From contig NC_088922.1 in NCBI RefSeq assembly GCF_038396675.1, forward strand, positions 9,416,001-9,480,000: a DNA stretch of 64,000 nucleotides, written 5' to 3'. The position numbers were made by a program, and so were the translations under genes. Positions 15,138 to 58,336 of the stretch are shown one piece after another. This DNA is from Hydra vulgaris. Lineage: Eukaryota > Cnidaria > Hydrozoa > Anthoathecata > Hydridae. Below the pieces are notes generated by a model that saw nothing but the letters and a program-made list of their open reading frames with translations, had not been told where the DNA came from and did not search any database. Within the stretch, counting starts at the first letter, position 1. The number at the start of each line of letters is the position of its first letter.

Positions 15138-16880
15138 TTATTCAGCAAATAGAAATTTTAGTCGTCTGCGTTCACTACCAAACTTATTTACAATTTGTTC
15201 CATAAATTTAGATTTTTTGGAGCGTATTTTTTCACGATGCACGCTCAACATGCAAAGCCCAGACAAACGCTCATTGAACATGGTTGATCGTAGCCAAGTC
15301 TTTACGCGCCGCAATGTACTAAATGATCATTCTACAGTATGTTATAGTTGGCAGTGTTGTTAAAATGAGCAAAACTTCACGAACTGCAGGGCAGAACACA
15401 ATCTTTGGTGGTAAATCTGTGATTGTTGTAATGTTGTGTTTTGAAAAGATTGAATGCCCCAAAAATCAAATCAAATTACACTATCGAGTTTAAAGTTATC
15501 AATTTTGTATACTTCATTGACAGTTGAGGTTTTCTTAATGAATTTTTCACGAGTTAAAGTTCTCATCTTTGCAGGATGAAGTAAACAAAGGTTAAAATGA
15601 GCAATGTTATCTTCTGAGAACCGCGTTTGAAGCAAATTGATTAATGAATCGAGATAAGGGATATACATAGCCTGGCGACATTTGTATCCGTTGCTCCACA
15701 TATGTTTTGGTATAACTGCCTTGAACATTCCCTTGATGGTGTTAGTTGAATGTTCAACTTTCCAAACAACTGAATTACTCTCTTGTAGATATCTGCACTG
15801 AAATGCATATCTGCCTTGTTACGATGTAGATTTAAAACCAAGAGCAATTCGTGAATGTGCCTCTGTACTTGTGGAAGGTCTAGTTGAATGGCTTGAAGTG
15901 CTTGAGTACAGGGCTCCATGAAAGCTGAGTAAAATGAAAAGATTATTAGTCCAGATAAAAAAGTTGTTGAGCTGAATGCTAACAACAACTGATGTGCCGA
16001 CGTGTGTTTCCGTTTGCTTCGTTAGATAACACATCCAACTGGGTAAATATTTAATCAAAATTATTACAAAACACTTGTATGTTCTTAAACTTTGCAGTCC
16101 ATCAAGTCTCGCAGAGAAGTGGGTACCATTGATCTTCTCTTAGGACTTTCACGGAAAAACGCAATAATTGACTTAATAGTACCAATTGTATTGCGAATTT
16201 GCGGAAGTACACTCAGATCATTTACAACCAAGTTCAGTCTATGTGTTGAGCAATGAATAAAAGCCGCGTTTGGATATTTCATTCTGATTCTTGATTGGAC
16301 GCCGTTATCCTTTCCTGCCATGGTTGAGCAACCATCGTATCCCTGACCAAACAGACGATCTAAATTGAGGCCTAATGATAAACACTTGCTTAATATGGCG
16401 TTGGAAATTAAAGCTGCAGACATGTCATTCAGTGGAGCAAATCCAAGGAATTCTTCCCAAACCATTTGCTCTTTTGTTGGGTCGACAAAGCGTATTCTAA
16501 TGGATAATTGTTCTGTCCCTGAAATATCGGCTGTTTCATCAGCTAATACTGAGAATCCAATGGAGTTATTTGCAGCTGACACATCATTTACCAGAATCTG
16601 TTCAGATATTTTGATCAATTCTTTTTCGGATCAATTCATTTTGGATTTCTTCTCACTGCCATGAAGTTTTCAGCATCTTGTTGAGAACACATATGCCATG
16701 ACGATGACATGTGGTTATGACGATGACATGCATTAAAACCTCTAAATTTTCTAAAGGCTGTAGTAATAAATGCACCTTTAAAACCTCGATGTACTTTTTG
16801 TGGGAAAAGAATGCAATATATACAAATAGCACCTTTTAGTTTTGAAGACAACGCCAGCCAAGGAGCATATTGAACCAACC
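15138..16880 (-). pseudogene. hAT transposase of ZMYM1/DUF4371 type, inactivated
   Basis: Reading the minus strand: 16878-16636 gives a TTF-type zinc finger block (CIYCILFPQK); 16618-16085 gives the conserved core start, including FSVLADETADISGTEQLSI and FGQGYDGCSTMAG, then NAAFIHCSTHRLNLVV; after frame changes at about 16080 and 15690 the chain continues (KADMHFSADIYKRVIQLFG; AMYIPYLDSLINLLQTRFS). The C-terminal dimerisation segment (SFSTLRRVKTWLRSTMFNER) ends at 15138, with the Arg codon of the usual ERSFS motif changed to TGA. At least two frameshifts and this nonsense change make it a pseudogene. ORFs on the plus strand here are shadows. Confidence 0.85.
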
Positions 16881-17400: not shown

Positions 17401-18097
17401 AGAAACTTTTTTTCAAAAATTTTTTTATTATATCAATCATATATATTTCTGAATAAAGATTTTATATTCATGGTTGTTTACAATTAGTTAAAAAACTAAT
17501 GTGAAGTTAACACCTAATAATGCTAAATTAGCAGAAAGCAACCCGTAATACGGGTTACGGTCGGTCTGTTACTTAATTTATAGTGGCTGTTTTCCACAAT
17601 TTAAAGTTGCGAAACCTTAACTGGTAACCTGTAAGAAAAACTCCTTCAAATTAAAAAATTAAACTATCTGTAAAATTAAAATAAATTAATTTACCAATTA
17701 TTTAACGTTATTTGAGTAATTTACAACTGACATAGGTAATATCAGTGTATGGCCGAACCATTTTCCCAGACATTACTAAGTTCAACACAATACGTTTTTA
17801 GTTACTGACACAAAATAATAACACTTCATCATGCCTTAAATTGACGAAAGATTAAAGCTAAATTCTTGTTATATTTTTTATAACATGAACTTTAATTGAT
17901 AAGATTAATATGAAGTGAACGTAAATTATTTATGAGTTATTAATTTTTTGGTATCCCCTTGAAACATGTTTCTTTAAAAAAGGAAATTGTCTTTAAAACG
18001 ATAAATGCACACAACTAAATAAATTTATTATAAATAACTAAGCAGTTGAGTACAAATACGTTTCAAACAAAAAGTCGATTTACAATCAAACGTGTAT
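17401..18097. other. Non-coding stretch with a palindromic motif
   Basis: No gene seen. A short motif described separately lies at 17533-17562. Confidence 0.6.
17533..17562 (+). repeat. Copy 1 of a palindrome-bearing motif
   Basis: TTAGCAGAAAGC is followed by AACCCGTAATACGGGTT, a perfect 8-bp palindrome around one base. The same string in the same orientation occurs at about 22743. Possible transposon terminus (Helitron-like ends carry hairpins), not proven. Confidence 0.7.
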
Positions 18098-18733
18098 TAG
18101 GGTGGAGCGATTTTCATGGCAAAAAAAAGAGTTTAAAAACCAATATTACTGAGACACGAATCAATGTCTATTAATTATAAGATAAAAGTAAAAAAATATT
18201 TTTTGATTTTGATGAGATCTTGAGGGTCCTCTTTGGAATTTAAATTCTTGACAGGTCCTAATATTTGTGAATTTTTTTTTTCTAAACCATATCAACCTTG
18301 GACTCAAAAAAAGCAGAAAAAAAAATGCTTGTTTCATAAATAATAATTTTATTATTTATGAAAAAATATAATTATAAATTTTTTAGTGAAAAAAATACTT
18401 GCAAAAATATACCTTAAAACCCCCGTTTTGTTGAGGTCGGGGGTTTTTGATGAAAAAAAAACAACTCTACTTTTTTAATTTTTTAATAAAAACAAATATT
18501 ATTTTCAAAATCAGTATATTATTTTGCTTCTTTTAAGTATCAAGTTGATATAGTTTAGAAAAAAAAAATTTAAACAATATTAGGACCCCTAAAAAATTTA
18601 GAATCCAAAGAGGAACCTCAAGAACTCATCTAAACTAAAAAAAAAAAGAGTAAGGTTCTTTTTTCACCAAAAGATATTGATTTGCTGCTCAGGCAAATCA
18701 AATTTCAAAAATTTTCAAAATCGCTCTACCCTA
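18098..18733. mobile_element. Foldback hAT-type MITE, 636 bp
   Basis: Termini are TAGGGTGGAGCGATTTT and its complement TAGGGTAGAGCGATTTT (16 of 17). The inverted repeat extends inward for over 100 bp on each side (for example the blocks around CCTCTTTGGA and GGTCCTAATATT). Flanking octamers ACGTGTAT (18090-18097) and ATGTGTAT (18734-18741) match at 7 of 8, an 8-bp target duplication expected of hAT (or P) elements. No coding; a small GC-rich hairpin-like core (CCCCCG..CGGGGG) sits near 18421-18446. Confidence 0.85.
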
Positions 18734-18741
18734 ATGTGTAT

Positions 18742-19368
18742 AACAAATTGTAAAAAATATGTAAACTTTGATCTTTCATATTGCATTAATGCGTCATATG
18801 ACAAACCTAAAATAAAAATTGTAACAGATAAGTAGACATAAAAGAAAAACAAAACAAAACAAAAAAAACAACTGGAATTCAATTTACCTGCTTTTCGGTA
18901 GCCTGTTGTCATACTTAAACGGTGTTGTTTTATGACGTTATTTCACGTTGGCTTTTAGTAAACTTTAGTTATATTTAATAGACATTACAATAGATTTAAA
19001 ATATTTTAATTAAAAAGAAAAAAAAAATGCTTCAAGGAGCCAAACTAAAAACATTAAAGATAAAAAGTCAAATAGATATAAATAAATTGCATTTATATAG
19101 CTAAATAGTCTTGGCTTATTGTAAATTTTAAAAGCAGTGTTTTCAATAAATTAAACTACCAATTAATAATTTTTAACAAATAGAATGTAGCATCCTATTA
19201 TAATGATTGGGTAGTGAATCAATTTAACTATATTTAAGTTTAATTGGTAAAAAACAAATAAAATTTCAATTAAAAAAGACAAAAACAAACCAAATACAAA
19301 CAATAGTATATTATAAAAAATTACAAATTAAAAAAAAAATTACAAAATTAAAAAAAATAAAAAAAAGT
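18742..19368. other. AT-rich stretch with a weak match to the micro-exon family 3' segment
   Basis: No gene seen. At about 19155-19195 the minus strand weakly matches the terminal segment shared by loci at 25.46, 27.87 and 49.23 kb. The rest is A-rich with long A runs next to the structured segment. Confidence 0.4.
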
Positions 19369-19574
19369 CACCGAAGAAAAAACGGCAACAAAAAAGTTAT
19401 AAATATCTTCACGGATAGGAGACATTTACAACCTTTTGGTTGCTGTTTTTTCTTCGGTGTCTCCCAACACCCCGTTATGGATGAGCCCTCCATTTGAAGG
19501 ATGGCTCATCCATACCGCCATTACTTTGCCACTTATTGAAGGACCTCTCCGAGAGAGACCCTGGGTGTTGGGAG
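19369..19574. ncRNA. Candidate structured RNA or foldback element (multi-hairpin)
   Basis: Two adjacent stem systems are visible. Stem A pairs 19369-19389 with 19439-19459 (21 positions, one G-U) and extends about 9 more pairs inward. Stem B pairs CTCCCAACACCC (19461-19472) perfectly with GGGTGTTGGGAG (19563-19574) and encloses stem C, TGGATGAGCC (19478-19487) with GGCTCATCCA (19503-19512), and a small CTCT..AGAG hairpin near 19545-19555. The segment is much richer in GC than its surroundings and is flanked by long A/T runs; on the minus strand a T-run follows, as at a pol III terminator. No known RNA family recognised; it may equally be a foldback transposon. Confidence 0.5.
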
Positions 19575-19897
19575 CGATATCTTTTGTATTCTTCAAATGT
19601 TAACGACTCTAAAATTACAAATAGAAGGATATAACAAAATTTAAAAATATTTACAATTTTTTTAAATCAATATATAAAGCATAACCTCACCATTTTCACA
19701 GGATGAAGAGGATGCTAAAAATAAATTTAAAAAAAATAAATTAGAATAGTTAAACTTGTGAGAAATTTAACTTTAATAAAAATATGAGCAAAACGCAAAC
19801 AGTTTAAAAATGTCATATTTATATTAAATAATTCTTTCACCTATTGCACATATTTCTCCGTAAAAAATATATAAAACTTAAAACACAGCCCTACCAG

Positions 19898-22441
19898 TTA
19901 TGCTTCAACCAGACACTAAAGACAAAAAATATACCTCAGAATAATTGATAGAATTATATTTACATATAAATATTTAACTATAATTTTTTTACCTATTCCC
20001 CTCATTTCTTCCATGAAGTTGTTTAAAGTAAGATAAAAGATAACTGAAGCTAAAACTAATTAAAACTAAACTAAAATTAACTATAAACTTAACCAAAACT
20101 AAAAAAAACTTTAAATTTTAATATCTGTACCTCAGAAGACAAAGGTTGGTTATCCAGTTTTTTGTGAAAATGAGTTATGTATGAGACCTTTTTAGTTTTT
20201 TCAGTATCTACATAGGTATAAAGACTGTTTTCCTGCAACAATGTGAAACAAAGTTTGGTCAATATAAAGGGTCTGGTGTCCCCACAATGTTCAAAGGAAA
20301 AACGTCTGTAGTTCAGAAATGACTTTTCACTTTTTTTATTTAACTTTTTATTATTGTCAAAATTATATTTCATGTGCCTCAAGACAAATTAAATAAGACA
20401 AATTAAATAAAACATAAATTTAACCATCAAGAATAAAAAAGCCAATAAAGACTAATTATTTTACTATTTACTCTCTCCTGGACAATTTCTAAAATGTGAC
20501 AACTGACTTGGACTACTGAGTGTACAGATATAAATGCTTTATTTAACTATACTAATCACATAATTTATACTTAGTTTTTTTTCCAACTCTCCTAAAAGAA
20601 AAAAGAAAATAAAGCTTTAGTACTTGAAGTTTTAAAATTCCAGTTACAGTACAAATAAACCAATTCCTATAAACAATTATTTTAACAGCAAAAACACTGA
20701 CTTATTTCAGTCTTCAATTCTGTGTCTAAACAATAAATGCACTTAAATGTATAGACGTTAAAATATCTACTTAACTTTTTAAAAATAAATTTACTAAACT
20801 AATGTAACTAATACCTTTATTAGCTCTTTCTTGATCAACTAAAGAAAATAAATTTTAATTAAACTAACTTGATGTAAAATAATAAGCTGTCTTACTGAGA
20901 ATTTTAAATTTTTTCTCTATTATTGACAATATAATTTTAAGTATTACCTTAGTTAAGCCCAAGAACTATAAGTTCTTGGGCTTATTGTATAAAAATATAA
21001 AAACCTACTGTTTTACTTTAAAATATTGCTGTTGACTTAAAACTTACTGTTTTAAGTCAACAACAATATTTTAAAAAACATTTTAGTTACTTTATAAAAA
21101 AATAAAAATTCTTTTAAACATACTACCTCTCTCTTCATTGTTGTCAACTAAACAGAAAAACAAACAAACAACTGATAGTAAATTTTCCCTTTGGTAGTAG
21201 GTTATTAAATAGATTAAATAGATCAAAGATCTATAATCTGCTCTAACAGTCTACAACATTATCATTAAACTATAACTATTTTCGACAACCTGGTGTAATT
21301 TAACACAGATATATTTTTTTCAAATGACAAAAATTATTAAAGTACATTATATAAACATAGAACAAATGTAGTGATAGTGGATTTAATCCAAAAATAGAAA
21401 GAACCTTTAGAAAAAAGTTTACTGTTTTTAAATCTACAAAAATTTCCAACTTACATTTTTTTATCTGCATTTATCTATAATAAAATATGAATTAATGAGT
21501 TACCATTATTTAAAGTTGATCCAGAAGCAACTAAAATAAATTATCAAATAAAAAGTTTATTTATACAATCTTGACGATAATGTTGAAATAAACAATATTT
21601 ATTGCTTGAAAAGTTAAGTAACAAATGTAATTCAAGTATATTAAAATAAATGTACGAAGTTACCTGTTGTGGCTGGTGCAACTGAAGTTATAACTAAATA
21701 AAAAAATATTAAATAAAAAAGCTATTTTATCTATCTTATCTATTTTATCCTGATGATTATGTTTAAATAAACAATATTTATTGATTCTTTTTAAAATAAA
21801 TTAAAAAACATTACTATTTGCTGTAAAATAAAATAAAAGACATTACTACCACTTGCACCAACTGATGATGCTACCACACCTAAATGACAAAATTTATTAA
21901 AATATTTAAAACATATTCAATGCTTTAAAAGAATATTCAAAAGAAGTTTTTAAATCTACAGAATCTAAGTCCTTACTGAGTTCTACCTGTCTGTCTAAAA
22001 ATAAAAATTAAGATAAAATTATATACAATAAAATTGCTAATGCTACATTTGTACTCAAATAAAATCTAAATGATAAAACTTACTTAAGTCGCTGTCAGCT
22101 AGCCTGTCTAAAAAAAAATTAATCCTAATCTATAATCTATAAATAAACTTACTAATATAAACGATAAATAAACTTGAACTAATATAAACTATAAATAAAC
22201 TACTATATACTATGTAAACTAATATAAACTATAAATAAACTAATATAACTATGTTACTAATATAAACTATAAATAAACTACTATACACTATATACTTACT
22301 AAAAAAGCCTTCAGCTCCTTTTAACTGCTCTAAAAAAATGAAACAATACTTGCTTAAAATGATCTAAAAAGACTGAAGACAAAACTGAAACACTTTACTA
22401 AAAAAAAAACATTGTACTAAAAAAATTTTTTTACCAGTCAT
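19898..22441 (-). CDS. Micro-exon gene 1: 14-exon gene model, unknown protein of about 130 residues
   Basis: Exons on the minus strand: 22441-22435 (ATG ACT G), 22329-22300, 22107-22084, 21994-21977, 21879-21850, 21693-21664, 21530-21504, 21147-21127, 20838-20815, 20725-20702, 20591-20571, 20488-20472, 20232-20131 and 19915-19898 (stop TAA). Internal exons 2-11 are 18-30 nt, all multiples of three, all entered and left in phase 1; acceptors are T-rich ending TAG and donors are GTAAGT, GTAACT, GTCAGT and similar. The joined frame has no stop over 130 codons. Peptide pieces in order include EQLKGAEGFF, RLADSDL, VVASSVGAS, ITSVAPATT, ASGSTLNN, DNNEER, DQERANK, TELKTEI, RELEKKL and IVQER; the larger exon encodes ENSLYTYVDTEKTKK and on to QPLSSE. 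The second half is charged and could form a coiled coil; no signal peptide is evident. First and last exons are the least certain. I recognise no family. Confidence 0.55.
20954..21074. repeat. Two adjacent hairpins in an intron of micro-exon gene 1
   Basis: TAAGCCCAAGAACT (20954-20967) pairs perfectly with 20971-20984 across a 3-base loop. A second inverted repeat (21018-21043 with 21049-21074) has arms of about 26 bases with one mismatch. Both lie between exons 8 and 9. Confidence 0.85.
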
Positions 22442-23574
22442 TTTAGTTTTAACTTCTTTTAAAAAAAAAACAGAAAAATAAAAACAACGAACAACAAACA
22501 AATTTTAGTTTTTAAACAATGAACAACATCAGTTCCACTTAAAACTAAAAATTTATCAGCTCTAATCGGCTGGAAGACCTTGCTTGAAAGACCGCGTGGA
22601 GTGAAGAAACGCTTTTAGAAGAGTCTAGAAAGTTCTTTATTAAAAAAGAAAGTGAAACGACACTAGCACTATTGAATTAGGCGAAACATTAGGCGTAACT
22701 ATGCGCACTATTCATTACCGTATTAATATATAGATTATATAATACTAGCAGTAAGCAACCCGTAATACGGGTTATTAGTCATTTAATCATTGCTTATAGT
22801 TAACGAAAAAAAAAGACTACATTAACATCGTTAAGTTCTTTTTAAAATCTTTTACACACAGCAGGTATTATAAAAAGAAAGTCAAGTAAAGCCTGCCTAC
22901 ACCTAAAAAAAGAAATGAAAAGTAATTACAATTTACAAAGTAATTACAAAATACAAAGTATCGTTTGCATTGTATTGTTAGTAGAGTATAACAGATAATA
23001 ATATAACAGAAAATATAAAGAATTAAAAAAATAGCTATAACAGCCCAGCTCTATTAACACAAAACACAGAAATAATAGCGCATAGCATAAGATATTTGTA
23101 AGCACACATTACTATGTTTCTCAAAATAATTAAAAAAGAAAAGGTTATCGAAAGGCTAGACAACTTAACTTAAAAACACGGCTAAATAACACCACAAATT
23201 TATAAGATATTTTATCAACTGAAATATTTGAACTAAAAAGATTTTATTTGTTTCAAAATTGAACAATTATGGTTAAACAATTTGAATAATTATATCATAA
23301 AATAGCAAGCAACTCGTAAAATATTTTATATACATGGTCTGGTGTTTTATATACATGTTTTATATACATGGTCATGGTGTGGTATTAAGAAATACGTAAG
23401 AGCTCAGTAATTACATGTTTTATTGATGTACTAATTCTCATTTAACTCTCATCTAAGTGAGAGAGGGAGAGAAAGAAAGTGTTTCCAAAGCAGCATATTA
23501 AAAAAAGTAAAAGACACACAATAAATAATATCAACTGGTTTAATTAAGTTACCAGTAAACAAAACTATTTTTAC
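22442..23574. other. Stretch upstream of micro-exon gene 1, no gene seen
   Basis: This is the 5' side of gene 1 (minus strand). A slightly GC-richer segment at 22560-22640 could hold its promoter, though I see no clear TATA or Inr. At 23090-23175 a block resembles those at 25.66 and 27.95 kb (shared AAAGGCTAGACAAC). Confidence 0.4.
22743..22772 (+). repeat. Copy 2 of the palindrome-bearing motif
   Basis: CTAGCAGTAAGC then AACCCGTAATACGGGTT, as at 17533. A decayed form (TAGCAAGCAACTCGTAAAAT) lies at about 23303, and an inverted relative (CCCGTATTTTACGGG) at about 52227. Confidence 0.7.
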
Positions 23575-23999
23575 CTAAATTATTAGAAGTTCCAGCTTCT
23601 CTCTTACTGTTGACTAATGACTAATAGAGTAAATTTCATATCATTAAAATTTACAAAATTAAAACCATGTTTCAACAGTAAGGAAACTAATCAAGTGATG
23701 ACAAAGACAACTAAAAAAAAAGAACATTGAAAAACAACAGAATTATGTTTGAATTTATAAAAAAATTTAAAATCATTTTAATTTAATACTGTTATCAACT
23801 GTTACTGTAAATAGTAAAATTCATTTTTAGTATTGTTCTAAAGTGTTTAAAATCAAATAAAAAAACATTAACACTGCTTGACACTGAATTCTGGCAAGTA
23901 AGTTTTCTGCTTGCCGAGCAGCATATTTTACATTTCAACTATGACTAATTTTACCTTGCCTAGCTCTATCTCTTTCATTTGGACAACAATTATTTTTGC
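23575..23999 (-). pseudogene. Two further micro-exon-like segments, relic or partial copy
   Basis: Minus-strand segment 23999-23955 (45 nt, acceptor AATAG, donor GTAAAA) reads KNNCCPNERDRARQ in phase 1, and 23613-23575 (39 nt, acceptor ATTAG, donor GTAAAA) reads NSKREAGTSNNL in phase 1. Lengths are multiples of three and the content resembles exons 7-9 of gene 1 (ASGSTLNN, DNNEER, DQERANK). No complete gene could be assembled around them. Confidence 0.35.
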
Positions 24000-24422
24000 C
24001 TATTAGAATTTACAAAAATAAATTCTTCGCTTATTAATAGCCATTTCAATTTCACTGTATTCTTTAAAAATACTACCAGTAATATTACTATTGTTACAAT
24101 TGGATAATAAAAAAAGTAAAAGAATCTTACAAATTGTGATCTTTTTTAATTAAAGACTATATTTTAACTTAAGATTAATTGAAATCCATGTTTTTTTTTA
24201 AGTATATTAACAGAAAAGCAATGATATAAACAGAAAAGCAAAAAATCTGGAACAAACATTTCTTTGAATAAAACTACTGTATTTAAATGAATTAAATTAA
24301 ATAAAGCTCTAGAACTTCCCACATTGTTAATGGCAAAACTACAACACGTCCTGATCTAATATTATGATCATTTCCAAGGTTGTTTACATGTTTGTGTAAG
24401 GCATCATACTGCTTCCTTCTGT

Positions 24423-24960
24423 TTAGGTTAATTGTCTAACTGAAAGTCTATAATTGTAATACTGAGATAATGTAACATGATTTCTAACCAATGTAGCACA
24501 GTCAGGGTTGTGAACCATTTGATTATGCCAACCAGCATCACCCCTTAGAAAAAATAGAGAATAAAGCATAGAATCTATGTTGACAGACATACTTGATATA
24601 GTTTTAAGAGGATGACCTCTTGGGTAAATAACAACTTCCCTGGAAGCAGGTGAAGCACCGTCTTTGCCAACAAATACAACTGCAACATCATGTGAAAGGA
24701 GATTATAGCAAAGTTTATCTTGCCCTTCAAGTAAAGTCATTTTTATAACTGAGACTGAGCAACCTTCTATAGCTGTTGGGCGAATTTCTTCATCTTCCAC
24801 TTCAGCTATGTTTTTAAATGCAGGAGAAATTGGGTTCTCTTCACTAATAAAATTTTGCAATCGAAACATTAAACCATTTAAGCAAAGATCATTACCACAT
24901 TGCCGTATTCTAAAAATTACTGCTGCAAGTGGATCATAGATGTATAGTTGTCAATGTCAG
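24423..24960 (-). pseudogene. Helitron fragment: N-terminal helicase-like domain
   Basis: The minus frame is open from about 24955 to a stop at 24423-24425. It contains the conserved blocks VAVVFVGKDGASPASREVV, MLYSLFFLRGDAGWH and RNHVTLSQYYNYRLSVR, which match my memory of the Helitron-like N-terminal domain that precedes Rep in Helitron RepHel proteins. Upstream, YIYDPLAAVIFRIRQ fits the region ahead of it. Rep and helicase domains are absent, so this is a fragment. It lies among the micro-exon copies on the same strand. Confidence 0.75.
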
Positions 24961-25076
24961 TGGAACATCTTGATTTGGCCTAAGATTACATATATAAACA
25001 ATACTCTTATGACTTAAAAAATATATATATATATCAGTTTGGAGATGTTTGAAAAAAAATTAACTTAGCTTTAGAT

Positions 25077-25132
25077 TTATCAGATAATGTATTATGTACA
25101 ACATAGATACATCATCTGATAACTCTAAAAGA
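25077..25132. repeat. Inverted repeat (hairpin)
   Basis: TTATCAGATAATGTAT faces ATACATCATCTGATAA (15 of 16 pairs) around a loop of about 20 bases. Confidence 0.8.
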
Positions 25133-25355
25133 AAAAATGTAATGAATAAGTAAATAAATAAGAAAAACATTACATACAAAAAATGAAAGTCAATGTACTT
25201 TATAGAGAAAAGCTGTTGCAGTAGTTGTTAAATATTTTTATTTCATGTTAGCTTTTAGAAAATAATTTATGCTGGTACATCATGATTCCAAAATATTTAT
25301 AGCAAAATCATATAATAAACAATGCTAAATACAAAAAATCAAATTGAGTAAATAT

Positions 25356-25395
25356 CAATTGCATATATGGCAAAATAATGCCATATATGCAATTG
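25356..25395. repeat. Perfect 17-bp hairpin
   Basis: CAATTGCATATATGGCA pairs perfectly with its complement across the 6-base loop AAATAA. The stem is long enough for a MITE core or small-RNA precursor; no other evidence. Confidence 0.9.
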
Positions 25396-25444
25396 GGATT
25401 ATTTTGCTATATATGCAACATAGGCAGTGATTTTTTATAATAAA

Positions 25445-25870
25445 ATTACCTATTTATCATTTTTAACAATAGACACCAAATTAAGGTGAGCCAAATGTCT
25501 ATTAACTCAAAAGATAACAAAAAACAACATCACAGCAACAACACACAACAATAGCACACACCATAAGTTAATATAATATGCATATAACATAACTTAAGTA
25601 ACATAACATTCATATATAACAGAACATAAGTAACAACATTATACAAATTGTTATTAAAATACATTATTATGTATTTTTAGAATAATTAATAATAAAGGCT
25701 TGAAAACACCTTGACCTTTTTTTTTTTTTTTTTTTTTGCAGTAACACCTAAAGCAGTAACAGCTTGACACTAAATACTGATGTGTAACCCTCTGTTATAA
25801 GTACATCACTTGGCTGGCAAGGTTGTCACATCTTGCTCTACACATTTACCAAGTCGCAGCACTTTGAAAA
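25445..25870 (-). repeat. Family block B (copy near 25.5 kb)
   Basis: Shares with 27.85-28.05 kb, and partly with 23.1 and 49.2 kb, an ordered set of short matches: the terminal segment (minus GGTGTCTATTGTTAA), TTATGTATTTTTAGAATA, AAAGGCTTGAAAACACC, and GCTTGAC..GGCAAGGTTG..TCTTGCTCTA. I read these as decayed copies of a repeated unit that includes the 3' end of the micro-exon family. A 22-T run lies inside. Confidence 0.55.
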
Positions 25871-27849
25871 CATAGAAGCAACATAATATAAACATATGTA
25901 CCAACTATACATGTATAAATGTGTTTATATATGTTTAAGGTTAAACATATACCTTATATACATATTTAAACACATTTATAAAACAATTATATAACACATA
26001 TTAACACATACACAAACAATAAAAAAAACACTTTACGTTATTATAAAAAAACATTGATAAAACAACTATAAAGCACATATTGCCACATACACATCCTTAT
26101 CAAAAAAGCAAACAATAAACATGTGCAAACAAAAATTTTTTAAATGACGCAAGAAATTTAAAAAAAATTTAAAGTAAAAAAATAGTTATATACAAACAAT
26201 ACTCTTTACCTTCATTTTTTTTTTCATAAGAACTGTAATCCTCATAGCAAAATTTAACCTTTACATACAATAACATGTGACATGCCATGTCAGTGTTGGC
26301 ACAAAATTTTAATTTATTTTTCTAAATTTTCTAAAAAAGAACAAAAATAGTTAAGAGCATCACCGAAATTTCAAAGTAGTAATAACCAATTTTATGGAAA
26401 TAACATAAGTATAACTTTTTTGTTGCATAAAAAATAATTAGGCCTCATCCATGCCCCTATTTTCCTTCTAAAAAATAAAATATAAGCTCGATAACAAAAC
26501 TGCTAAAAAAAACAACGAAGCTAAGAGAAAAACTAAAGCAAACAAAATGTAAACGATTTTAAAAATTAAAAGAAGTGACCCTTTCTACTTTATATCTAAA
26601 AAAATGTTATATACAAATTGCTATTTTCTATACTTACTTCAATTATAATATGATCTTAATGATAATTATTTATCTTAATATGATTCTTTACATAATATTT
26701 TTAAACTAATAGATAATAATTAAATTCCATAAGGTAAAAAGTTTTAACTCGCTTAAGAGATCTTTCTCCAATGACCGCGTGCATTTGGAGAACGCGCTCT
26801 TTCAAAGCCTAGTAACTAATAAAACGACGTTAAACATTAAACGCTTCTGTAGCAATTAGATTATAGATATATATACATTTATAAATCCTCGGAGTCGCGG
26901 ACAACGCCATAGTTCATGTGTTGGGAGAAAACATTGAACAAAACGCATGATAAAACTTATAAACAATACAAAACAGGTTACTAACGCGGGTTTGTAAACC
27001 CCCCCCCCCCCTCCAACACACAAACTATGATGCTGTCGCAACTCCAAGGATATATATATATATATATATTGAACTATTTATTAGTGAAAACATATGAAAA
27101 TCAAAATTTTCTTTATAATATAGTATATTTTATAAATAAACCTCTTCAACTTCCTTAGTACAACAACTCAAATATGATTAATAACAACTCTGTAAACATG
27201 AATTTTTTAATAATCTAAATCTTAATAATTTATAAACAATTAAACTTAAATAAAAATGTATGAAAATGATTAATGCTATATTAAATATAGAAAAACAAAA
27301 CATATAATAACACAATTATATCCTAAACCACAATTCATTCAAGTAAGAGAAATTATATACATTTATTAAAAAGCCAGAAACATTTTTTTCAAAAAGCAAA
27401 GGTTTTAAAAATAGAGAATTTTAAAACCTTAAAAAAAGAGAATTTAACAATACTATAGTGAAAGCATGAAACTACCCATAAATATCTTTTAACGCATCTA
27501 AGAATTATAGCAATTAAATTTAAAAGTACAATTTAAAAAAAAATTACAATAAATTAATTACTTAATAAAATTTTAAAAAGATTTTATATTACCTATCATT
27601 TCAAGTTACTAAACATTATCTACCTAATATCTACTTAAACACTTTGAACTTGTACCATGAAAGGTCGTGACTTCTTTAAGAAAACACTTGGTTAAGAAAA
27701 GTCCGAAAACTACTTAAAAACTAAAAAATTGTGCATTTTACAGAATACAGAACTGTAACTAATATCAAACAATAGGCATAACTATGTGCACTAATAATAA
27801 TATTCACTGTGCTATTTATATTAGGAAATAAAAGCAGTGAGTTCTAGTA
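25871..27849. other. Long AT-rich stretch, no gene assembled
   Basis: Minus-strand acceptor-like TTTTAG sites followed by short non-AT pieces occur (for example near 26465 and 26600), as in the micro-exon genes, but I could not join them in frame. A C13 run lies at about 26999-27011. The minus ORF at 26856-27047 covers it and is not convincing. Confidence 0.4.
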
Positions 27850-28050
27850 ATTTAACTACCTATTAATCATCTTTAACAACAGACACTATCATAAAGATAA
27901 GCCAAAGGTAACAACATTACGCAAAAAATTATCAAAGATAATGTTATGTATTTTCAGAATAGTTATATTGAAGGCTAGACAACACTTAGACCTAAAGCAG
28001 TAACACCGCTTGACTGGTAAGGTTGACGAATCTTGCTCTAGATCTATAAA
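27850..28050 (-). repeat. Family block B (copy near 27.9 kb)
   Basis: Contains minus AGTGTCTGTTGTTAA, then on the plus strand TTATGTATTTTCAGAATAG, GAAGGCTAGACAACAC, ACCGCTTGACTGGTAAGGTT and ATCTTGCTCTAGAT in the same order as block 25445-25870. Confidence 0.55.
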
Positions 28051-29297: not shown

Positions 29298-30362
29298 TTA
29301 GAACTCGATTAGACCTCCTTTGCGCTCAATTACTTGATAAATTCGTTTTGGCATACTTCCCACCACGTTTTCTAGCACTTTTGGCTCCATATCCTCCCAG
29401 CATTCTGATACCGATACTTTTAACTCTGCCACAGAGTTATATTGCTTCTAGTCAGCATAGATGTCTTACAATGATTCCCCAGATGTTTTCAACAGAATTC
29501 AAATCTGGACCTCGAGCAGGCCACCACATTTGCTTGATTTTTTTACCTTCAAGCCAAGCTTTAGTCTCATTACTATTGTGAATGCTGGCGTTGTCTTGTT
29601 GAAAAACAAACTTTTTGCATCGATATTTGTTTTTAAATGGAATTAAACATAACTTTAGCACATCAATGTAATCAGAACTTTTCATTTTGCAAGATGCAAA
29701 TGTTAAATTTAACTTTCCTGTTGCACAAAACCCAAGTCAAATCATCAAAGATCCATCACCGAAACTCCTTGTCGAAAAATATTTGGGTTCTCTCCTCAAA
29801 TCACGCCAGTAGTCACTAAAACTATCAGGCCCATCAAGATTAAACTTTTTCTCGTCCGAAAAAATCACCTGGTATTGAAAACAAAAATATTTAACTATTT
29901 AGATATCTTACATATTCATGAGAATTTAATCTAAAATTTCTTACTTGCTGCCAATCGCGTGCCATGTTTTTGCAGGCGAATTCCATCTGTTTCTGTTTGC
30001 GAACGGGTTTTCAAATTTGGTGCTTTATTCATTTTTGATCGTACAATGTGTGGGCTGTCTTTAAGAACTTTCCTAATCGTCTCCTTGCGAGCATTAAAAC
30101 CCAAATATGACTTAATTGTTTTTAAACTTTTTGATGAATTTAATGCGAGTTGAACAATTCTGCGTTTTTCACTGCCTGAAACCTTAGATTTCTTTGGTTT
30201 CCTCTTGATTGTTGCATAATCTGCTGGATTTTTCAAGAAATTACGGATAACGTGATCTGATCTCTTTAATCTTCTAGTAAAATCTCGATTTGGAACTTTT
30301 TCTTGATGATAAGCCAATATTTGACCTTTTTCAATACCGGTAAGGGCCTTTCCTTTTGGTAT
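29298..30362 (-). pseudogene. Tc1-family DD34E transposase, intron-containing, inactivated
   Basis: From about 30362 the minus strand encodes a helix-turn-helix N-terminal part (KGQILAYHQEK, then KRSDHVIRNFL; SEKRRIVQLALN) and, after a one-base shift near 29995, CKNMARDWQQ at a GTAAGA donor. A 72-base intron ends in ACCAG, then VIFSDEKKFNLDGPD (first Asp), QQDNASIH (second Asp) and PDLNSVENIWG (Glu); 34 residues separate the last Asp and Glu. TGA replaces a Trp codon in SLMI*LGF. Stop TAA at 29300-29298. Catalytic residues remain, but the frameshift and nonsense change disable it. Confidence 0.88.
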
Positions 30363-30430
30363 TTGGTTTAGTTCAACTTAATTTCGACTCACAAAATAAA
30401 AATTACTGCAGATTATAAGAAATTTGCGAC

Positions 30431-33529: not shown

Positions 33530-35616
<2,087 letters not shown>

Positions 35617-47897: not shown

Positions 47898-47966
<69 letters not shown>
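47887..47966. repeat. (TA)n microsatellite at the Tc1 right end
   Basis: TA array starting at the element's TA target duplication. Confidence 0.95.
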
Positions 47967-47970
<4 letters not shown>

Positions 47971-49211
47971 CTAAGCACAGGGTGTATCGGATGGACAAAG
48001 GGGGCAGCAAACCCCCACCTCGCCCGTATAAAACTGAACACTTTTTTCAAAAAAAATGTTTTTTTTAAAGACTTAAGCAAAATAAATATGCAAAAAAGTT
48101 GTTTTAAATTTATAGTAAATCACTAAAATATACGAGAGGTGTATGATAGCAATAGAGGTGGGTGTGGTGGCGATGGTTTAATACACCCTAGCATCAAAAA
48201 CGACTTGATTTTATAAATATTTATATCTTTACTAAAATGAGAAAAATTAGAACACAATATAAAATTATGTTGTATAATCTTACGTATGAAAGTGGTCTTT
48301 CTATTACGGAAGGGGCGTATGCCCACCACCTACCCACCCCCTTACCCACCCTGTAAAAATTTATTATTTTTAAAATTTGAACAATAAATTTAAAAAATAA
48401 ATATTTATGAAATTGTTAATGAATTGAAAATAAATTAAAAAACAAATTCATAAAAAATTATTGTTTTCAAAAATTATTATTTTCAAAAAAATTATTATTT
48501 TCAAAATTTGAACAATAAATTTAAAAAATAAATATTTATGAAATTGGTAATGAATTGAAAATAAATTAAAAAATAAATTCATACCAGACAACCACAAAAT
48601 ATGGGAGATAAATGTAAAACTCACAGTAGATATGTTGATGATGTTTTAGAACTATAAAATCAAAAAATGTTTCAATTCTTGAAATATCTGAGTATTTAAA
48701 GTACAATAACAAAGAAGTAAAAAACATATTCCACTAGATTAAAAGTTACATTAGTGATGCATCCATGGTCATAAGAGAGTGGAGTATAAGGGAAGGCGTA
48801 TACAAATATGTCATAAGAAAGGGGCATTCTAACGGCCCTTCCACTTCTGACCAAAAATTATTATTTAATTGGATATATATTACTAAAAAAATTATACAAC
48901 TACTATTGTGGGGCTATAAGTCAATCGGCTGTAAAAAACAAGTCATCTTTCTAACCAAGTATAGCAAAAGCCTATAATAAAGTCTTTCATGTGATTTTTA
49001 CATTAACAGAAGTAAGGACCATACAGTATAGTTAACGACCTAGCCATTTTGTTTGGTTAACAAACAAACTTCCTGTTTCAAAATAAATAATAAATAAAAT
49101 GTTAAAAAAAAAAATAAAGTACAACTTTTTTAAAGATAATATAATATATTTTTGTCTTGACTTTTAGTGAATGATTAAATTGATTAATTTCAGAAATGAA
49201 ACTATGTTTTA
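47967..49211. other. Non-coding stretch with a 131-bp tandem duplication
   Basis: No gene supported; the ORF at 48765-48977 shows no recognisable features. Confidence 0.5.
48369..48582 (+). repeat. Tandem duplication, 131-bp period
   Basis: AAAATTTGAACAATAAATTT and the following 60 bp recur at 48372 and 48503 almost unchanged. Confidence 0.85.
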
Positions 49212-49218
49212 ATCATTT

Positions 49219-50690
<1,472 letters not shown>

Positions 50691-50699
50691 TTTGACAAA

Positions 50700-51358
50700 A
50701 AAAAAATTTCTAAATGCAATATAAAATTTAAGTCCTATTTTTATGATTTACTGAAAATCGTTTTAATAAAACACTTACTTTTAAATTTACAAATGTTTTA
50801 ATCATATTTTCATTCTAAAGTATCTAGGTTTATAATATCAATTTAAGACATAAGTTAAATATTGCTAATAATATTAGTAATATGAATGTTATATATAAAA
50901 AATATATATATAAAAATTATCAATGGACCCCTCTGTCTCCCGCGCTGACATCAGGGAAAATGTAAATTAGGTAACAAAAGTGCAGCAAGAAATAGGGTGA
51001 CTGCTACATAATATTTTCAACAAAAATTGGCAGGTGCATAGATAAATGAATAACTTAAAAATAAAAATTGAATAGAAAAAAAAGGACTACATCCTGGACA
51101 CTAATTTCACCACAGAAGTACGACCAAAACTTTGACATCAATAAACTCGTTAATATATCAATTGAGTATAATTAAAACCAAATCGAAAATAAGCTTCAAC
51201 TATTCTTCTTTCTAAAAATAATCTATGTTGATAGCGAATACTAAAAAGTTATTCCAGAAAGCCTTCCTCAAGCACACTAACTTTGAAGAGACTACGAAAA
51301 TCGTCGCACAAAATTTCAGCATAAAATTCGGTTACGTAAAACGCAATTGTCACGTACC
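50700..51358. other. AT-rich stretch 5' of micro-exon gene 2
   Basis: No gene seen. A TTTAG acceptor-like site lies about 20 bases upstream of the putative ATG of gene 2. Confidence 0.45.
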
Positions 51359-51537
<179 letters not shown>

Positions 51538-57835: not shown

Positions 57836-58336
57836 TTAGAGCACTCCATCTATAACATGAATAACACCATTTCTAGCAAGAATATCTTTTTCCACAACCT
57901 TTACTCTATTGTCAATTCTTAAAGTATCTGAGTCCACACGTCTCGCGGTAAGCAATTTAGGTATATGGTTCATTGTTTTTAGTCGATATATTACTCCTTG
58001 CTGAAAATTGTTAAAATATAAAACACCAGGTCCAATCATATGATTTCGAATGAAGTTCTCCCTAACATTTACATTTTCCGACAAAATATTTATGTTTTGT
58101 TTCAGCAAAATGGAAGTAGCAGGAAGAAACAAAGTGTAATAAAATGTATTCTTTATTAGATTCTTTATTGTTGTATTTCTAATGATATACGAATACATTT
58201 GAAATCTTGGATCAGCGTTTATTATTTCCAGTAAGGTACTTTTCTCGAAAAACAAAACCTTATCGACTATGTATATCAATGTATTGTTGGCATGAATAAA
58301 TCCATCAATAATGTTTGCCGATTGAACAGATATTGT
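57836..58336 (-). CDS. Terminal exon of a FAS1 (fasciclin)-domain protein
   Basis: Acceptor AATTATTTTTAG precedes 58336; the exon is open for 166 codons and ends GVL then TAA at the low-coordinate end. It begins with the tail of one FAS1 repeat (NIIDGFIHANNTLIYIVDKV), then a near-complete repeat: LLEIINADPRFQMYSYI, an H1-like YTLFLPATSILL, ENFIRNHMIGPGVLYF, TARRVDSDTLRIDNRVKVVE and the H2 motif DILARNGVIHVIDGVL. FAS1 proteins are usually secreted or membrane-tethered adhesion proteins such as periostin/TGFBI and fasciclins. It has no lesions, unlike nearby transposon ORFs, so this is probably a real host gene. Upstream exons should lie at higher coordinates, but I did not find them. Confidence 0.88.
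   Translation of the reverse strand, partial: TISVQSANIIDGFIHANNTLIYIVDKVLFFEKSTLLEIINADPRFQMYSYIIRNTTIKNLIKNTFYYTLFLPATSILLKQNINILSENVNVRENFIRNHMIGPGVLYFNNFQQGVIYRLKTMNHIPKLLTARRVDSDTLRIDNRVKVVEKDILARNGVIHVIDGVL

Follow-up and report, generated by a model that had tools for sequence, protein, structure and literature searches.

The window, by which we mean the whole 64-kb stretch of DNA analysed, contains on its minus strand, between 22441 and 19475, a predicted gene whose single open frame is assembled from an ATG exon of 7 nt, twelve internal segments and a terminal exon. The gene lies inside an element with the ends of a Helitron, and a second, decayed Helitron remnant (H2) adjoins this element, 10 bp upstream in the window. 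The features are as follows.

17528..22734, minus strand: Helitron with the micro-exon gene, length 5207 bp, termini 5'-TCTATATATT and 3'-CTAA, limits common to the aligned copies
17528..17560, minus strand: Helitron 3' terminus with palindrome, from the terminal comparison of copies
22435..22441, minus strand: exon 1, ATGACTG, followed by the donor GTAAAA; predicted start codon
22300..22329, minus strand: exon 2, micro-exon of 30 nt, phase 1-1, in the chain search and the translated model
22084..22107, minus strand: exon 3, micro-exon of 24 nt, in the chain search and the translated model
21977..21994, minus strand: exon 4, micro-exon of 18 nt, in the chain search and the translated model
21850..21879, minus strand: exon 5, micro-exon of 30 nt, in the translated model; pattern with splice sites at 172 places
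21664..21693, minus strand: exon 6, micro-exon of 30 nt, in the translated model; pattern with splice sites at 228 places
21504..21530, minus strand: exon 7, micro-exon of 27 nt, in the chain search and the translated model
21127..21147, minus strand: exon 8, micro-exon of 21 nt, in the translated model
20815..20838, minus strand: exon 9, micro-exon of 24 nt, in the chain search and the translated model
20702..20725, minus strand: exon 10, micro-exon of 24 nt, in the translated model; outside the chains, as the donor rule bars GTC
20571..20591, minus strand: exon 11, micro-exon of 21 nt, in the chain search at threshold 1 only and in the translated model
20465..20488, minus strand: exon 12, micro-exon of 24 nt, in the chain search and the translated model
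19691..19714, minus strand: exon 13, micro-exon of 24 nt, in the chain search at threshold 2 and in the translated model
19475..19608, minus strand: exon 14, terminal, coding part, with an early TAA in the window copy; other copies continue to ...NVFYQ
22745..27860, minus strand: second Helitron remnant H2, with its 3' end at 22745 and an approximate 5' limit set by eye
24423..24950, minus strand: RepHel remnant in H2, resembling Helraiser (PDB 7lcc_A, E 2.3e-13)

The twelve internal exons measure 30, 24, 18, 30, 30, 27, 21, 24, 24, 21, 24 and 24 nt. All have a length divisible by three and are in phase 1-1, and T-rich TAG acceptors and GT donors flank them on the minus strand. Their final boundaries were our choice, guided by the frame; an automatic chain search set some of them elsewhere, found a few extra segments and passed over one or two exons of the model. 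A sequence-only reading of this DNA had reported such acceptors and donors around tiny in-frame segments, and these are indeed present. It had counted ten symmetric internal segments; the symmetry and the common phase held, while the number rose to twelve. It had also proposed 17-nt exons, of which the model has none, its internal exons being 18-30 nt long, and a 3' limit near 19898, which proved too early, as the coding part reaches 19475 in the window and extends further in other copies. The segment 19915-19895, tried as an exon, was dropped because of an in-frame stop in phase 1.

Joining of the exons gives 145 amino acids in the window copy, the frame of which stops 22 codons before the end of the 167-amino-acid copies. 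The latter length is reached in 12 of 29 copies, some of them with a splice defect, and 7 of the 29 keep every splice site and every exon length with at least 125 codons. Other features were observed within or next to the gene. An intron holds, at 20147-20375 (minus strand), an open frame of at least about 76 codons, present as a 99-amino-acid version without a Pfam match in the copy L014; the terminal exon holds nested inverted repeats (by eye); and an imperfect 43-nt inverted repeat with an 11-nt spacer follows it at 19366-19462.

The DNA is AT-rich and this strand T-rich. We considered the possibility that the exons are a chance run of splice-like motifs. The chain search collected in-phase chains of 15-33 nt segments at donor thresholds 1, 2 and 3. 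The longest run in the element comprised 14 segments at threshold 1, where 300 dinucleotide shuffles reached at most 8, and 13 at threshold 2, where they reached at most 6. The difference was small at threshold 3, the strictest: the element gave a run of 6, and one shuffle in 300 reached 5, thus coming within one exon. When tiles of the window were searched on both strands at threshold 2, 42 of 46 had runs of at most 2; the remaining four corresponded to the micro-exon locus (12 and 11) and to a second locus within 45.8-53.6 kb (6 and 5). Twenty fetched copies gave runs of 14-18 on the element strand and of 0-3 on the antisense strand (in three of them, L011, L015 and L017, the chain starts in the flank); in 80 approximate flank-by-strand pieces, 162 kb in total, no run exceeded 2. 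The micro-exon run exceeds chance. Chance would suit the base composition, and splicing is itself a prediction here, but such runs were reached by no shuffle, other tile or flank at the two looser thresholds, and a frame of 167 amino acids stays open in the 12 copies mentioned above; we regard this explanation as very improbable.

The limits of the element were fixed by aligning the window with 20 copies. End counts were made by eye on 21 sequences, namely the window and L009-L028, among which L015 and L016 have common flanks and represent one insertion. The 5' end was readable in 20 of the 21 sequences and began with TC in 19 of these 20, the preceding base being A in 17 of the 19. At the 3' end, readable in 17 of 21, the palindrome was followed by CTRR in all 17 (CTAG in 16 and CTAA in one, the window), and the next base was T in all 17. 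The 3' terminus of L014 folded better than its shuffles (z -2.8), 3 of 200 shuffles being equally good. The comparison of ends points to insertion between A and T, with no duplication of the target. In L014, the one copy read in this respect, the longest frame listed inside the element is 103 amino acids long, hence no intact Rep-helicase; as this copy has no RepHel-sized frame, the element is filed as a non-autonomous Helitron. Inside it, at 18092-18739 (minus strand), inverted-repeat ends about 650 bp apart were seen by eye, and this segment may be a nested small DNA transposon.

In the genome searched (911.5 Mb, 15 contigs), 84 matching pieces were grouped into at least 40 copies, including that of the window (best 40 of 1231 candidates). 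These copies sit on 14 of the 15 contigs, and the exon 6 pattern adds a place on the fifteenth. This pattern, taken with its splice sites and allowing up to 3 mismatches, occurred at 228 places, and the corresponding exon 5 pattern at 172; controls gave 0 in both cases. The protein sequence of the terminal exon had at least 150 matches (best 150 of 1231 candidates). If the locus were a micro-exon gene of the host, present once, this would account for the exon architecture, yet such a single-copy gene is refuted by the multi-copy state, with at least 40 copies spread over the contigs. The Helitron ends and the fact that the window copy is shorter than others also speak against it; we give it hardly any weight at all. 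The proposal of an undescribed micro-exon gene, made from the letters alone, is thus upheld for the symmetric micro-exon architecture, which goes beyond chance by shuffles and flanks, and fails for the single host gene: judged from its ends and copies, the locus is the cargo of a multi-copy Helitron.

The neighbouring remnant and other relatives connect this element with RepHel-bearing Helitrons. The last 30 bases of H2 and L014 have 29 in common, and the 5' part of H2 is 74% identical to L014 over 130 nt. The Helitron_like_N domain had at least 150 matches in the genome (best 150 of 857 candidates). At one locus, L042, a Rep frame of the H2 type is joined to the 3' module in which exons 13-14 lie, with 92% identity over 500 nt; including this one, four pairs of a terminal exon and a Helitron_like_N match on the same strand and within 5 kb were found by eye among the 150 + 150 matches listed. 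L038 and L039 have kept the 5' end and the 3' module around a different middle, and L038 has, near its 5' end, a degraded counterpart of the region of exons 1-2. Two other candidates for related frames were rejected: frames of 143 amino acids at two loci represent intron read-through in Helitrons with another middle, and a long frame fused to the terminal exon (a 1787-amino-acid open frame) consists mostly of a masked run.

The gene has probably been a long resident of this Helitron lineage, for exons 13 and 14 belong to a 3' module that also occurs in Helitrons with other middles, including one with RepHel. The alternative is a recent capture, in which a Helitron would have copied a host micro-exon gene together with its introns, the copies being passengers and the host original working elsewhere. 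Helitrons are known to take up intron-bearing genomic stretches, L014 is devoid of a RepHel-sized frame, and the copies drift with no selection seen, which all agree with a capture. Against it, the gene spans the element, from exons 1-2 near its 5' end to exons 13-14 in the common 3' module, and no copy of the gene outside a Helitron was identified at the places where the sequence was read, some 30 of the 172-228. We consider a recent capture possible, though we lean towards long residence.

Variation among the copies was compared between the parts of the gene. A variant present in at least 3 of 29 copies was seen in 7 of the 273 columns of eleven micro-exons, in 8 of the 132 of the terminal exon and in 60 of the 2320 of the remaining sequence. 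Rare variants were synonymous in 12 cases and not in 56, the expected synonymous share being 0.30. Between pairs of 31 copies, micro-exons differed on average by 2.8%, introns by 3.1% and the terminal exon by 4.9%; the expectation that exons would be better conserved than introns was not borne out by these values, which gauge decay after insertion and not conservation of the source gene. Among the 29-31 copies there was no sign of purifying selection and no synonymous bias, and their variation looks like neutral drift and decay.

These data also bear on the possibility that the gene serves the Helitron as a working accessory gene, selected in active source elements, the product of which would help transposition. 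In the majority sequence of 29 copies, no stop interrupts the eleven micro-exons, and gaps common to at least 3 copies are found in 0 of 273 micro-exon columns versus 51 of 2320 in the remaining sequence. Such gaps are, however, equally absent from the intronic open frame (0 of 228) and from the terminal exon (0 of 132), so that gap-free micro-exons are weak evidence. A subfamily (L027, L040 and L041) has another exon end and another donor at the segment matching 21879-21850; by our reading, this 3-nt donor difference leaves the exon 30 nt long and in frame. Consistent subfamily differences, taken from two copies, are too few to decide the matter: exons 1-13 have none at 295 positions, the terminal exon has 1 at 191, and the introns have 12 at 2101. 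With synonymous bias also absent, a selected accessory function appears doubtful.

By inspection, the stretch ELKTEIRELEKKLKIVQERVN of the predicted protein displays the 3-4 spacing of hydrophobic residues, and the C-terminus is basic. Searches with the joined protein gave nothing over the curated cut-offs of Pfam (best match FBF1, E 0.0011) and no convincing relative in the PDB (two matches, E 0.14 and 0.72). With a 304-nt query of joined exons, no retrocopy spanning a junction appeared among the best 40 of 166 candidates, where the matches were of at most 34 nt and each covered about one exon, give or take a few bases. As no retrocopy across a junction was seen, splicing is one of the points that we infer.

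Taken together, we consider it likely that a gene of 14 exons, the twelve internal ones being phase 1-1 micro-exons, is the cargo of a non-autonomous Helitron of about 5.2-5.6 kb, and that many copies of this element are drifting passengers. The RepHel protein of relatives would move the element in trans. An intact copy that came to lie in a transcribed place would give an mRNA that, once spliced, could encode a coiled-coil protein of about 167 amino acids with a basic C-terminus. Skipping of any internal exon would keep the frame at the cost of 6-10 residues, and the length of the coil could vary in this way. Many copies, probably including that of the window, would be passengers that drift apart.

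This arrangement resembles known systems in part. MEGs, which the portions of PMC8293314, PMC7653826 and PMC10526429 drawn on here define as genes with runs of short symmetric exons, are described there in parasitic flatworms. The counting rule, as worded in the part of PMC7653826 that we used, calls for at least 7 exons, of which at least half are micro-exons (<70 nt, divisible by 3), with a run of at least 4; the present gene has 14 predicted exons and a predicted run of 12. It is like the MEGs of schistosomes and tapeworms in its long run of very short symmetric exons, and unlike those of schistosomes in its polar N-terminus, such as MTEQLEGAEGLFNRLADSDLN, which on inspection does not look like a signal peptide. 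For want of the signal peptide reported for schistosome MEGs, we call it MEG-like in design and do not file it as a MEG. It further differs from flatworm MEGs in being multi-copy, on a transposon and in a hydrozoan-like genome. Transcripts of schistosome MEGs show skipped exons, a trait that the present gene may share.

The element itself is like other Helitrons, with Helraiser as the RepHel reference, in its 5'-TC, its palindrome with 3'-CTRR, its insertion between A and T, and its kinship with RepHel-bearing elements that have an almost identical 3' end or a common 3' module. It differs in having a predicted 14-exon micro-exon gene aboard and, in L014, no RepHel-sized frame. The gene-capturing Helitrons of plants and bats are multi-copy and carry gene pieces, including introns. 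Here, by contrast, an entire predicted micro-exon gene is carried, which starts close to the 5' end of the element and extends into its 3' module. Judged from literature listings, nothing was found that joins micro-exon genes with Helitrons or Hydra; in the passages of PMC8293314 drawn on here both topics are named, with no link drawn between them.

Elsewhere in the window, Pfam matches were obtained for a Tc3-type transposase (29931-30377, minus strand), a hAT dimerisation region (34532-35218, plus strand), DUF4371 (16085-16630, minus strand) and Fasciclin (57836-58336, minus strand). Within the 64 kb, no Rfam match exceeded the thresholds and no tRNA was found. A second repeat at 47965-51360 (minus strand), with limits near 51360 and 47965 and flanked by TA arrays, has its own run of symmetric micro-exons; the chain within 50163-48330 is the only other one in the window longer than 2 at threshold 2. 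This repeat is also multi-copy, most of the long matches being 83-96% identical (best 40 of 234 candidates). In L043, the one copy of it that was read, two exons of 21 nt in phase 1 have GTAAGT donors; the window copy has lost both of these donors and has ATAAGT.

A broader reading is that Helitrons here spread working modular coiled-coil micro-exon genes, which would land by host promoters and yield many in-frame isoforms, and form a dispersal route for the MEG architecture outside flatworms, the second repeat of the window, with its own symmetric micro-exons, hinting that such cases recur; we think this reading rather unlikely. If the same architecture does travel as transposon cargo, this would be one way in which micro-exon genes can be moved and multiplied. 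The copies offer natural material for experiments on how very short exons are spliced, and some of the genes counted in such a genome may be Helitron cargo.
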